Source: Persicimonas caeni
GTDB taxonomy: Bacteria > Myxococcota_A > Bradymonadia > Bradymonadales > Bradymonadaceae
Direction: 5' to 3'
Length of the DNA stretch: 64,000 nucleotides
Assembly (NCBI RefSeq): GCF_006517175.1
Contig: NZ_CP041186.1
Coordinates: forward strand, 2,011,001 to 2,075,000
Shown: positions 9,849 to 49,543 of the stretch, in pieces
How the letters are laid out: the number at the start of each line of letters is the position of its first letter
Numbering within the stretch: the first letter of the stretch is position 1
Position numbers and translations under genes: made by a program
Notes under the pieces: generated by a model
The model's database searches: none
What the model was told of the DNA's origin: nothing
Seen by the model: only the letters and a program-made list of their open reading frames with translations

Positions 9849-10634
9849 TCAGCCGTCGTCGTCACTCGCGCCCTTGGCCTGAGCGACGTGGCTGAAGGTG
9901 ACGAGGCCGACGCCGCCTACAAGATTGCCCGCGGTAACGAGCCCCATGATCCTAAAGAGGTCGCCGAAGTCGACTGCCGCGTCGAAGAGAATGCCAAAGA
10001 AGACGTGCAACACGGTGACGATGACATGATCGAAGGGACCAAACGCCAGAAGAAATCCGACGAGATACGCCATCAAGATGCGGCCAACGACGCTGTTGAC
10101 CCCCTTCAACATGAAGGAAAGGAGCGACACGAGCGCGCCTCCCACAAAAGCCGACGCCAACACGGTCCACACGCCCCGACCTGCGATCTCCTCGGCCAAC
10201 GTGGCCAATGCGCTCGCGGCTCCCTTTGGCAGAACGCCGGCCACCCCGAAGACGAGCGCAAAGAGACCGCCGCCGACCAGGTTGAGAAGAAAGGTCAGCC
10301 CCCAGAGACGCAAGATCGCGCCTGCCTTTAACTCCCCTTGTTCAAAAGCAGTTGCCACCGGGTCAAAGAAGTTCTCGTTGAACAGCTCGGCACGCCCCAC
10401 AATCAGAAAAACGAGTCCCACTGCGAAAGCGAGCGCGCCGGCCAGTTGGGAGACCTGCCCCCACTGCGGTTTGACTAGGCTGTGGGCGATACCCAGGGCG
10501 ACGAGGCCAAAGACGATGGTAAACCCGGCAATGAAGCTGGTCGACACAAGCTCGAGCATCGATTGCCCCAGCCGTCTGTCCCCCTCGTCGGCAGCGCGAT
10601 GAAAGATCTCGGACGGCTTGGGAGCAACGGACAT
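9849..10634 (-). CDS. Formate/nitrite transporter (FNT) family protein
   Basis: This protein of 261 aa has about six membrane segments and the N-terminal PSEIFHRAADEG element seen in FNT proteins, with the loop region GRAELFNENFFDPVATAFE matching the family. FNT pentamers pass formate, nitrite or hydrosulfide. The ATG at 10634 has AGGAGGACCG upstream. The substrate cannot be assigned. Its right neighbour region carries gene debris, and its left end is 30 bp from repeat copy B. Confidence 0.8.
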   Translation of the reverse strand: MSVAPKPSEIFHRAADEGDRRLGQSMLELVSTSFIAGFTIVFGLVALGIAHSLVKPQWGQVSQLAGALAFAVGLVFLIVGRAELFNENFFDPVATAFEQGELKAGAILRLWGLTFLLNLVGGGLFALVFGVAGVLPKGAASALATLAEEIAGRGVWTVLASAFVGGALVSLLSFMLKGVNSVVGRILMAYLVGFLLAFGPFDHVIVTVLHVFFGILFDAAVDFGDLFRIMGLVTAGNLVGGVGLVTFSHVAQAKGASDDDG

Positions 10635-46364: not shown

Positions 46365-46658
46365 TCAAGCCTCCATCAACTCCGCGTCGGAGACGACGCA
46401 CATCCCACCAAAACGATCGAGCAGCGGGCGGATCGCGGCGAGCACGGTGTCGAGGTTGTCGCTCTCGCAGATGGTCATCACGTAGATATTCTCGAGGGCG
46501 CCGGTGATCTCGTCGCCCGAGCGTACCCCGCGCCGTCCGCGCCCTCGCGCGTTGGGCAGCACCGTGTAGCCGGAGACGCCTGCGTCGTCGAGCAGCTCGA
46601 CCATCCGGTCGATTTGTAGGGAGTCGATGACGATTTCGATTCGTTTGACCGCGCGCAT
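46365..46658 (-). CDS. PII-like protein of the SbtB type
   Basis: This protein of 97 aa has the ferredoxin-like PII fold: KRIEIVIDSLQIDRMVELLDDAGVSGYTVLPNARGRG, a T-loop region ending in GDEITGALENIYVMTICE, and a C-terminal strand. GGAGG lies five bases before ATG 46658, two bases after the sbtA stop, so the pair forms an operon. In cyanobacteria SbtB binds adenyl nucleotides and cyclic nucleotides (including c-di-AMP) and controls SbtA. The diadenylate-cyclase-domain protein at 18.8 kb might supply such a signal, which is speculation. Confidence 0.8.
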   Translation of the reverse strand: MRAVKRIEIVIDSLQIDRMVELLDDAGVSGYTVLPNARGRGRRGVRSGDEITGALENIYVMTICESDNLDTVLAAIRPLLDRFGGMCVVSDAELMEA

Positions 46659-46660
46659 GC

Positions 46661-47632
46661 TCACCTCCAGAAGAAGTCGATGACCTGATAGTACAGCGGA
46701 ATCCCGACGATGATATTAAAGGGAAAGGTCACCGCCAGCGAAGCGGCGATATAGAAGCTCGGGTTGGCCTCGGGCACGCTCAGGCGCATGGCCGCCGGAA
46801 CCGCGATGTACGAGGCGCTGGCGGTGAGCAGCGTGAACAGCAGCGCATCGCCCGCGCCGAAGCCCAACAGGCGCGCCAGGCCGATGCCGATGGCGGCGTT
46901 GAGCAGGGCCATGCCGATGGCGAAGCCGACGAGGAAGAGACCTGCCTTCTTGAGGTCGCCCATATGACGCGCGGCCACCAGGCCCATGTCGAGCAGGAAG
47001 AAGGCGAGCACGCCTTTGAACAGGTCGCCGGTCAGCGGCTCCATCGCCTTCCAGCCCGGCTCCCCGGTGATGAAGCCGATGACCAAGCTGCCCACCAACA
47101 GGAAGACCGAGCCGTTGAGGAACGCCTCGCGGAGCAACTCGGACCAATCGAGGGGCTCGTCGCTGTCTTTGCCGGCGCCCATGCGCACCAGCAGCACGCC
47201 GATGATGATCGCCGGAGACTCCATGAGCGCCATCGCCGCGACCATATGCCCGCCGAAGGCGACGTCGAGTTGGTTCAAAAAGGAGACGCCCGTAATGAAG
47301 GTGACCGCGCTGATCGACCCGTAGGCCGCCGCCAGCGCCGCGGCGTTATACAGGTCGAACCGAATACGCAGAATCCAAAACGAGTAGATGGGCACCACGA
47401 TGGCCATGAGCATCGCCGCGCCCAACGCCAGGGCGATATCGGCGGTGATGCCGCTCTTGCTCAGCTCGTAGCCGCCGTGCATGCCGATGGACAGCAGCAA
47501 GTAGAGCGCCAGCGACTTGGAGAGTTGCTGCGGGATGGTCAGGTCGGAGCGGCTAAACGCCGCCAGACAGCCCAGCAGAAAGAACAAAATGGGCGGATTG
47601 AGCAGATTGTCTGCGATCAGTCCAAAGTCCAT
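46661..47632 (-). CDS. sbtA: SbtA-type sodium-dependent bicarbonate transporter
   Basis: This protein of 323 aa has ten membrane segments in two inverted halves, with family motifs NPPILFFLLGCLAAFSRSDLTIPQQLSKSLALYLLLSIGMHGG, AAYGSISAVTFITG, and ASASYIAVPAAMRLSVPEANPSFYIAASLAVTFPFNIIVGIPLYY. It should import bicarbonate with sodium under control of the adjacent SbtB. The start MDFGLIADNLLNPP at 47632 is usual for SbtA. The gene is led by a terminator-bearing leader shared with icd and is divergent from mutH. Confidence 0.85.
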   Translation of the reverse strand: MDFGLIADNLLNPPILFFLLGCLAAFSRSDLTIPQQLSKSLALYLLLSIGMHGGYELSKSGITADIALALGAAMLMAIVVPIYSFWILRIRFDLYNAAALAAAYGSISAVTFITGVSFLNQLDVAFGGHMVAAMALMESPAIIIGVLLVRMGAGKDSDEPLDWSELLREAFLNGSVFLLVGSLVIGFITGEPGWKAMEPLTGDLFKGVLAFFLLDMGLVAARHMGDLKKAGLFLVGFAIGMALLNAAIGIGLARLLGFGAGDALLFTLLTASASYIAVPAAMRLSVPEANPSFYIAASLAVTFPFNIIVGIPLYYQVIDFFWR

Positions 47633-47663
47633 GGTCGTCGTCTCCACGTACAGGTCAGCAAAC

Positions 47664-47745
47664 AAAAAAGGCCGGCATACCACGCAATCTATGCGCGGGA
47701 TGCCGGCCTCCATTCATTTCACCCGCTCCCAGAACAGGAGCGTGT
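47664..47745 (-). ncRNA. sbtA leader element homologous to the icd leader
   Basis: In sense orientation: ACACGCTCC-N6-GGGAGCGGGTG, then a terminator with outer stem GGCCGGCAT/ATGCCGGCC, inner CGCATAGATTGCG and six Ts, ending 32 bp before the sbtA start. No minus-strand gene lies upstream (mutH is divergent), so a terminator here can only act on the sbtA transcript itself, which argues for attenuation. The icd leader has the same block order and CGCATCATTGCG at the inner hairpin. Confidence 0.65.
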
Positions 47746-47912: not shown

Positions 47913-48584
47913 ATGGATCTATCCCCACCGACCACAGAACAAGAACTCCTCGAGCGGGCCGACCGCATCGCCGGGCGCACACTCGGTGAGCTCGCCGCGA
48001 TGCACGATATCGAGGTGCCCGATGATTTTCGCCGCGCCAAGGGCTGGGTCGGACGGCTCATCGAGACGTGCCTGGGGGCGAGCGCGGGCAACCGCCCTGC
48101 CCCCGACTTCGAGAAGGTGGGCGTCGAGCTCAAGACCCTGCCCATCGGCGCCGACGGCCTGCCGCGCGAGACCACCTACGTGTGTCGGGTGCCGCTGGCC
48201 GACATCGAAGAGCTCACCTGGGAGACCTCCCGGGTGCTCAAGAAGCTTCGGCGGGTGTTGTGGGTGCCTGTGGCGCTCGTCGAGGAGATGCCCATCCCCC
48301 AGCGTCCGGTGGGTCAGGCGATCCTGTGGTCCCCCGAAGGACATCTTGGCGAGGCGTTGCGGCAGGACTGGGAGGCTCATACCGAGACGATTCGCCTCGG
48401 GTTTATCGAAGATCTGACCGCTGCGGACGGCCAGTACCTACAGATTCGCCCCAAAGCAGCCCACTCGGGTAAGTTGACGTGGGCGCCGGGGCGCGATGGT
48501 GGGTCGATCCTGACGCTTCCGCGCGGCTATTACCTGCGCCGCGACTTCACGTCGGCAATTCTTGAAGCGAATTACGCATGGTGA
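47913..48584 (+). CDS. mutH: MutH-like DNA mismatch repair endonuclease
   Basis: This protein of 223 aa aligns along its whole length with E. coli MutH (229 aa): LSPPTTEQELLERADRIAGRTLGELA, KGWVGRLIETCLGASAG, DFEKVGVELKTLPI, TWETSRVLKKLRRVLWVPV, GQYLQIRPKAAHS, LTLPRGYYLRRDFTSAIL. All catalytic residues are present (E51, D65, E72, K74, K111, matching E56, D70, E77, K79, K116). MutH nicks the unmethylated strand at hemimethylated GATC. No dam, mutS or mutL lies in the window. The ATG at 47913 gives the family N-terminus. Confidence 0.92.
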   Translation: MDLSPPTTEQELLERADRIAGRTLGELAAMHDIEVPDDFRRAKGWVGRLIETCLGASAGNRPAPDFEKVGVELKTLPIGADGLPRETTYVCRVPLADIEELTWETSRVLKKLRRVLWVPVALVEEMPIPQRPVGQAILWSPEGHLGEALRQDWEAHTETIRLGFIEDLTAADGQYLQIRPKAAHSGKLTWAPGRDGGSILTLPRGYYLRRDFTSAILEANYAW

Positions 48585-48656: not shown

Positions 48657-49478
48657 CTACTCGGCCGAACGATACTCCGGCTCGTGGCGATACGTGCGAT
48701 ACTCGCCGCCGCGGTGCTCGCCGCGCTTTCGATCACCGTAGAGCGCGGTGATCATCTTGGCCCCGATGGCCAGCCCGCTGATCAGCAGACCGCCACCCAG
48801 GGCGATGACTGCGACCAGGTTGAGCGTGACCTGCTCACCGATGCCCACCAGGGTCAAAATACCGAGGGCGACTGCGCCCAGGCCAGCCACGGTCTGCATG
48901 GCAGCGGCGCCTTTGACCGACTCGCTGGCCACGCGTTGCTTGTGCATCGCCGCACCCGAGGTCTCGATGACCAAGTGCGACAGCCGTCTGGTGGCTCCGG
49001 CGCCGAACATCATCGCCCCACCGAGCACGATGATGGCGACCGAAGTCAAGATTGCGGGCTCCACGCCCACCAGGGCGAGAATGCCCAGCGCGACGCCGGC
49101 GGCGCCGCCGATGGTCTCGGCGGAGATGCCTCCGCCCGTCTCGGCGAGGTTGGCCGACGAGTGACGGTCGCCGGTCGAGTGAAGGATGTCGCGGTATTTC
49201 GCGCCAATGCTCGCCCCGGCGAACATCAAGCCGCCACCAATGGCGATGATGGCGATGGTCACAAAGAGGATTGGCAGCACGTCAGCCAAGCCCAGAATAC
49301 CCAGGGTAATGGCGCCGGCGCCGGCGATCACCTCCAGGGTCGAGCCTCCGGCGACAACCTCGGCGGTCTCCTTCTCGACGCCTTCGTCGCGGTGTCGATA
49401 CGTGCGTTCGTATGCTTCCTCGCGATGCTCCCCCCTCTCGGAAGGAACCATTCCTTCTCCCATTCCTGCGGTACTCAT
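48657..49478 (-). CDS. Membrane protein with three internal repeats
   Basis: This protein of 273 aa has three copies of a two-helix unit of about 65 residues: GAITLGILGLADVLPILFVTIAIIAIGGGLMFAGASIGA, GVALGILALVGVEPAILTSVAIIVLGGAMMFGAGA and GAVALGILTLVGIGEQVTLNLVAVIALGGGLLISGLAIG. Termini are highly charged (His/Arg/Glu-rich). It resembles HdeD-like arrangements only superficially and belongs to no family I recognise. AGGAGG precedes ATG 49478. Two palindromic operators sit immediately upstream. Confidence 0.7.
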   Translation of the reverse strand: MSTAGMGEGMVPSERGEHREEAYERTYRHRDEGVEKETAEVVAGGSTLEVIAGAGAITLGILGLADVLPILFVTIAIIAIGGGLMFAGASIGAKYRDILHSTGDRHSSANLAETGGGISAETIGGAAGVALGILALVGVEPAILTSVAIIVLGGAMMFGAGATRRLSHLVIETSGAAMHKQRVASESVKGAAAMQTVAGLGAVALGILTLVGIGEQVTLNLVAVIALGGGLLISGLAIGAKMITALYGDRKRGEHRGGEYRTYRHEPEYRSAE

Positions 49479-49495
49479 GGCTTCCTCCTGCGCGT

Positions 49496-49543
49496 GAGAT
49501 TGTATATTCAATCTCGCACTGTCGAGATTGTACGCTCAATCTC
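49496..49543 (-). promoter_or_regulatory. Paired palindromic operator sites
   Basis: Two 20-bp palindromes, GAGATTG-TATATT-CAATCTC (49496-49515) and GAGATTG-TACGCT-CAATCTC (49524-49543), are spaced 28 bp apart and begin 18 bp upstream of the membrane protein start. The conserved 7-bp arms and variable spacers look like a dimeric repressor's binding sites. The regulator is not evident nearby. The remaining 49544-49800 shows no gene. Confidence 0.65.

Follow-up and report, generated by a model that had tools for sequence, protein, structure and literature searches.

Introduction

The mutH gene of Persicimonas caeni, a predatory bacterium of the Bradymonadales, raises the question of what this nuclease does in such a genome and which strand signal, if any, it reads. 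The gene lies in a stretch of 64,000 nucleotides (here called the window; positions 2,011,001 to 2,075,000 of NZ_CP041186.1). The Bradymonadales are now classed in the Myxococcota (PMC11509652), and MutH and Dam are said to occur only in a subset of the Gammaproteobacteria (PMC8034640). Furthermore, organisms with MutH are said to have a MutL that lacks the nuclease domain, MutH being missing from organisms with a nuclease MutL (PMC8744996).

Results

The window encodes a full-length MutH

The open reading frame begins with an ATG at position 47913 and its stop codon ends at 48584 on the plus strand (223 codons). Its product exceeded the cut-offs of both curated equivalog models titled 'DNA mismatch repair endonuclease MutH', NF003458 (284.9 bits, cut-off 243, profile positions 4-221 of 223) and TIGR02248 (244.3 bits, cut-off 229.9, profile positions 1-215 of 217), and also matched the Pfam MutH domain. 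The protein aligned end to end with the MutH proteins of known crystal structure (1azo, 2azo, 2aoq), those of E. coli (phmmer E 2e-69, 52% identity) and H. influenzae (phmmer E 9e-57, 46% identity). By these scores, the match at 47913-48584 is far beyond chance.

The functional residues were checked in an alignment of 34 MutH sequences (A1). In the end-to-end alignment with E. coli MutH, the position in the window MutH plus 5 gives the E. coli position. The residues E51, D65, E72, K74, K111, R179-P180-K181 and Y207, equivalent to E56, D70, E77, K79, K116, R184-P185-K186 and Y212 of E. coli MutH, were invariant in 34/34 sequences. From the established work on MutH-DNA structures we take the R-P-K loop to read GATC, and the tyrosine at the Y212 position presumably senses the adenine N6 and hence its methylation. 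The features are the following:

47913..48584, plus strand: mutH, DNA mismatch-repair endonuclease MutH, 223 aa (NF003458, TIGR02248 and Pfam MutH)
48063..48065, plus strand: codon E51 (E. coli E56), active-site residue, invariant in 34 sequences
48105..48107, plus strand: codon D65 (E. coli D70), metal-binding catalytic residue, invariant in 34 sequences
48126..48134, plus strand: codons E72-L73-K74 (E. coli E77...K79), catalytic ExK motif, E72 and K74 invariant
48243..48245, plus strand: codon K111 (E. coli K116), fifth catalytic residue, invariant in 34 sequences
48447..48455, plus strand: codons R179-P180-K181 (E. coli R184-P185-K186), presumed GATC-reading loop, invariant in 34 sequences
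48531..48533, plus strand: codon Y207 (E. coli Y212), presumed adenine N6 sensor, invariant in 34 sequences

This is the only mutH copy in the P. caeni genome, a complete single chromosome of 8,047,206 bases (8.05 Mb). Among close relatives within the family of P. caeni the dN/dS of MutH was 0.13-0.18, which indicates purifying selection. By homology, the window protein is a true MutH orthologue, the predicted nicking enzyme of mismatch repair.

MutS1 and a MutL with nuclease motifs are present, Dam is absent

The partners of MutH were then searched in the whole genome. MutS1 was found with 1004 bits (cut-off 641.7). A single MutL of 676 aa carries the endonuclease motifs DQHAAHERIGFE (of the DQHA(X)2E(X)4E type) and CPHGRP; E. 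coli MutL is devoid of such motifs. Concerning the methylase, a six-frame search of the whole chromosome gave no match to the Dam-type family (D12, PF02086), while the controls, including E. coli, were positive. This rules out that a Dam was simply overlooked by the annotation.

These data bear on several points of an earlier note on the window. It had recognised an intact, full-length MutH with all five catalytic residues in a Bradymonadales-type genome, and this reading stands: both equivalog cut-offs were passed and the five residues are invariant. Its suggestion that MutH had been transferred together with dam does not, since the complete chromosome contains no D12/Dam methylase and the MutH tree places the protein among those of other Myxococcota families. 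It had also named the absence of dam together with a MutL bearing its own DQHA(X)2E(X)4E motif as speaking against canonical methyl-directed repair, and this is the combination that was found. Because Dam is lacking and MutL keeps its nuclease motifs, we did not assign the canonical Dam/MutHLS type. As to the broader proposal that MutH-type repair exists in this lineage, the canonical Dam form has to be given up, while a methyl-directed role in a changed form is plausible, given a DpnA-type candidate methylase and the wide occurrence of MutH in the phylum.

A solitary DpnA-type methylase is a candidate for the GATC mark

The P. caeni genome contains exactly one PF01555 methylase (C1:5482318-5482962, minus strand). 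Over the catalytic region it shares 56% identity with the second methylase of the LlaDCHI trio of pSRQ700, which is flanked by a Dam-type methylase and a DpnII-type nuclease; LlaDCHI is a GATC-recognising system (PMC4190342). The identity was 52-55% to two other methylases of DpnII-type operons, as against 44% to a CcrM-like outgroup. The protein has the beta-class motif order and, as judged in an alignment with three DpnII-type operon methylases, the DpnA-group signatures DPPYFLSN, MVSVNKGxWD, PPNLSCRYFTHxTET and KQMK. Next to the gene, neither a Dam-type methylase nor a DpnII nuclease was recognised, and the gene is solitary. It occurs in 16 of the 21 genomes of the family of P. caeni, with 54-60% identity to the LlaDCHI second methylase across the family, and in all five genomes sampled from the other family of the order. 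It is an old, vertically inherited orphan methylase gene of the order.

The GATC specificity of the enzyme is putative and follows from its 56% identity to the LlaDCHI second methylase, which makes it a good candidate for the GATC methylase. Pneumococcal DpnA has single-stranded DNA as its substrate (PMC3573125), and its P. caeni relative may thus not maintain double-strand GATC methylation. The DpnA-like gene is about 3.4 Mb away from mutH. A C5 methylase of the Sau3AI type was also considered as partner of MutH and was discarded: the only C5 methylase of the genome is Dcm-like. In the plasmid collection, the closest DpnA-like relative (61%, tblastn) is an unannotated stretch at about position 10275 of Neisseria gonorrhoeae NZ_CP119142 (L139); this is a chromosome-sized record, and about half of the DpnA-like domain was recovered from one open frame.

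MutH is widespread in the Myxococcota and is accompanied by methylase genes

We surveyed an even sample of 379 Myxococcota genomes. TIGR02248 matched in 127 of them: 117 have a clear MutH and 10, all of family f4, a remote MutH-like protein. That MutH is restricted to a gammaproteobacterial subset with Dam, as the earlier note had assumed, is indeed what current papers state (PMC8034640, PMC8744996), but the 117/379 Myxococcota genomes with MutH do not agree with it; the distribution contradicts these papers. An alignment-based search of genome contigs, from which 80 loci were kept, gave among the matches listed only gammaproteobacterial or unplaced Pseudomonadota sequences and no further phyla, and a single-protein search of the contigs with the window MutH found nothing.

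A D12 methylase was present in 259/379 genomes and a DpnA-like gene, by our own count in this sample, in 43. One or the other was found in 113/117 genomes with MutH versus 157/252 without (Fisher 2.6e-14), a p-value that ignores the kinship of the genomes. Outside the family of P. caeni, D12 alone gave 100/104 versus 145/244 (p 3.7e-14, the genomes again being related), D12 being a broad family in which some genes need not be Dam. Four MutH-containing genomes, some of them incomplete, have neither methylase (G025, G082, G137, G152). Within the family of P. caeni, 13 of the 21 genomes have MutH, and the association with the DpnA-like gene is weak (12/13 with MutH versus 4/8 without, p 0.047); two relatives, G008 and G087, each assembled as a single contig, contain the DpnA-like gene and MutL without MutH.

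Two further observations came from this survey. The combination of MutH and a DpnA-like gene (72% identity) without D12 recurs in G336, a distant and very large genome of family f59 (L234:5722-6363, L384), whose MutL match runs into the end of a contig. The remote MutH-like protein of f4, a family of the same class, is about 200 aa long and reads RNKGWAGxVVERYLG...DFxDxELKV (L367, L375 and L376 in G058, G224 and G108); all ten genomes carrying it have a D12 methylase, and with it a further lineage of functional MutH may have gone unrecognised.

Loss of the MutL nuclease motifs follows MutH

The C-terminus of MutL was read as protein in 130 genomes (84 with MutH, 44 without, 2 of f4). A strict DNA motif search had been set aside in favour of this reading: with D in place of the last E in many intact MutLs, it counted too many losses. 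In the genomes with MutH, the nuclease motifs were kept in 43, lost in 38 and partial in 3; in those without, they were kept in 39, lost in 3 and partial in 2, a contrast that is perhaps somewhat inflated since the MutH-less sample is skewed to high-scoring MutLs. Low-scoring MutH-less genomes were added deliberately, and the three MutH-less losses (G002, G100, G218) are among them. Both f4 genomes read (G058, G108) had lost the motifs. The MutL tree shows at least 16 inferred state changes, and 19 of its 21 all-lost clades stand in MutH or MutH-like backgrounds. In the family of P. caeni, the MutL endonuclease motif was intact in every genome examined. As an observation apart, the three exceptions (L267, L268 and L270 in G100, G218 and G002) combine a MutL without nuclease motifs and no detected MutH with both D12 and DpnA-like genes.

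If MutH does the nicking, one would expect the MutL nuclease to be lost in genomes that have MutH. The repeated loss, almost only together with MutH, suggests a real function of MutH in the mismatch repair of this phylum.

A predicted methyl-directed repair with a mark other than that of Dam

We lean towards the reading that the window protein is a true MutH acting in methyl-directed repair of the E. coli kind, with a DpnA-type mark in the place of Dam and with MutL nicking alongside. MutS would find the mismatch and then load MutL, which, by orthology, would activate MutH. At a hemimethylated GATC, MutH would then nick the strand that carries no methyl group, leading to removal of the new strand. 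Hemimethylation would be the strand signal, and the methyl mark would most likely come from the solitary DpnA-type adenine methylase (beta-class, PF01555), as its homology suggests. According to its motifs, MutL would also nick by its own endonuclease, and two nicking routes would coexist. Since MutL keeps the whole motif in the MutH-containing family members examined, MutH would not be needed for nicking as such.

This last point is also where a different reading enters, according to which MutH serves mismatch repair without methyl direction: a clamp-held MutL would aim it as an accessory nickase at the new strand, or MutH would be a back-up to the MutL nuclease. Dam is absent from P. caeni, the MutL motif is intact in all family members examined, two relatives do without MutH, and the DpnA prototype methylates single strands, all of which would fit. 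However, in the absence of a mark an enzyme able to cut either strand at unmethylated GATC would be a hazard, the methyl-sensing tyrosine is invariant in the 34 MutH sequences, and a candidate GATC methylase is found in nearly all MutH-containing genomes of the phylum. We therefore regard a MutH without methyl direction as rather unlikely.

Origin and neighbourhood of mutH

The maximum-likelihood MutH tree is unrooted, is weak at its deep nodes and gives no direction of transfer. In it, all gammaproteobacterial MutHs fall into a single clade (bootstrap 86) that adjoins several Myxococcota clades, and the MutHs of the family of P. caeni form one clade (bootstrap 62), joined at 98 with those of the sister families f44, f48 and f37. 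As placed by this tree, the Myxococcota MutHs form lineages outside the single gammaproteobacterial clade. No gene neighbours of MutH are conserved in the family loci beyond close relatives, and the neighbours differ between genera. The third-position GC of mutH is 0.79, compared to 0.86-0.89 for its neighbours. Because of this slightly low value and of the differing neighbours, movement of mutH within the phylum is possible.

A MutH that was recently acquired or is decaying, with no important role in the family, could be read from the same values and from the patchy occurrence of the gene (13/21 genomes). It is a distinctly improbable explanation, as the family MutHs fall in one clade, are intact with all functional residues present, and are under purifying selection.

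Kinases shared with the G336 locus were considered as MutH-linked genes and rejected as generic histidine kinases. Upstream of mutH, positions 46500-47713 of the window (minus strand) look, when read by eye, like the gene of an SbtA-like sodium-dependent bicarbonate transporter and then a small PII-like (SbtB-like) gene, an odd pair for a heterotrophic predator. Directly after mutH, positions 48657-49511 (minus strand) encode a small membrane-type protein in which a unit of about 70 aa apparently occurs three times in similar form.

A restriction function is unlikely

Proteins of the Sau3AI type are about 480 aa long and have two MutH-like domains. The window MutH scored 50.7 bits with the Sau3AI model NF040973, far under its cut-off of 300, and none of the surrounding ORFs in the family loci is a methylase. 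GATC occurs 5.2 times per kb in the P. caeni genome and is mildly under-represented (observed/expected 0.84; 0.96 in MutH-containing relatives). The earlier note had offered a Sau3AI-like restriction use as an option. We consider it unlikely: the protein lacks a second domain, its gene has no methylase next to it, the depletion of GATC is not strong, and the methylase is kept in MutH-less relatives. That MutH would be the nuclease half of a Sau3AI/DpnII-like system, with the distant DpnA-like gene as its methylase half, is very improbable: the fold is common to MutH and Sau3AI, the Sau3AI model and one PADLOC model of a type II nuclease match weakly, and DpnA relatives occur in DpnII-type operons, but the protein has a single domain, the two genes lie megabases apart, the methylase is retained where MutH was lost, GATC is not strongly avoided, and MutL motif loss tracks MutH across the phylum.

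Discussion

P. caeni shares with the MutHLS-Dam systems of E. coli and H. influenzae a full-length MutH orthologue with the same catalytic, GATC-reading and methyl-sensing residues, as well as MutS1 and MutL. It differs from them by having no Dam, a candidate methylase of the DpnA type, and a MutL with endonuclease motifs not found in that of E. coli. These motifs, DQHA(X)2E(X)4E and CPHGRP, are those of the methyl-independent MutSL repair of B. subtilis, Caulobacter and Pseudomonas, whereas P. caeni also has MutH. The Sau3AI family has the MutH-type fold and the class of GATC target in common with the P. caeni protein, which is, in contrast, a single domain with no linked methylase. Likewise, the solitary methylase resembles the LlaDCHI second methylase of the DpnII/LlaDCHI systems but stands alone and is kept in most genomes of the family.

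The P. caeni MutH is a further member of a known family, and genes of this kind may already bear the name MutH in annotation of the RefSeq type. The apparent novelty lies in the pattern: MutH occurs together with a nuclease-competent MutL and an orphan methylase of the DpnA type, while Dam is missing. In the open-access literature we found nothing relevant on MutH in Myxococcota or on MutH together with DpnA, which does not prove that such work is absent.

More tentatively than for the repair pathway itself, we propose that methyl-directed repair may be both ancient and common among the Myxococcota, and no speciality of the Gammaproteobacteria. In the Bradymonadales, Dam would have been replaced by the unrelated DpnA-type enzyme, and MutH and a nuclease-active MutL would stand side by side, possibly as an intermediate before loss of the MutL nuclease.

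About a third of the sampled genomes of a phylum other than that of the known MutH carriers contain MutH, and MutL nuclease losses are repeated there. The genomes provide a natural series, from nuclease MutL alone, through MutH with nuclease MutL, to MutH with a dead MutL, so that the evolution of methyl-directed repair becomes testable by comparison. If the proposed reading is true, the Bradymonadales are a case in which an enzyme of another class than Dam supplies the methyl mark, and a lineage with both systems would be a good place to study how new and old strands are discriminated in organisms with a MutL nuclease.
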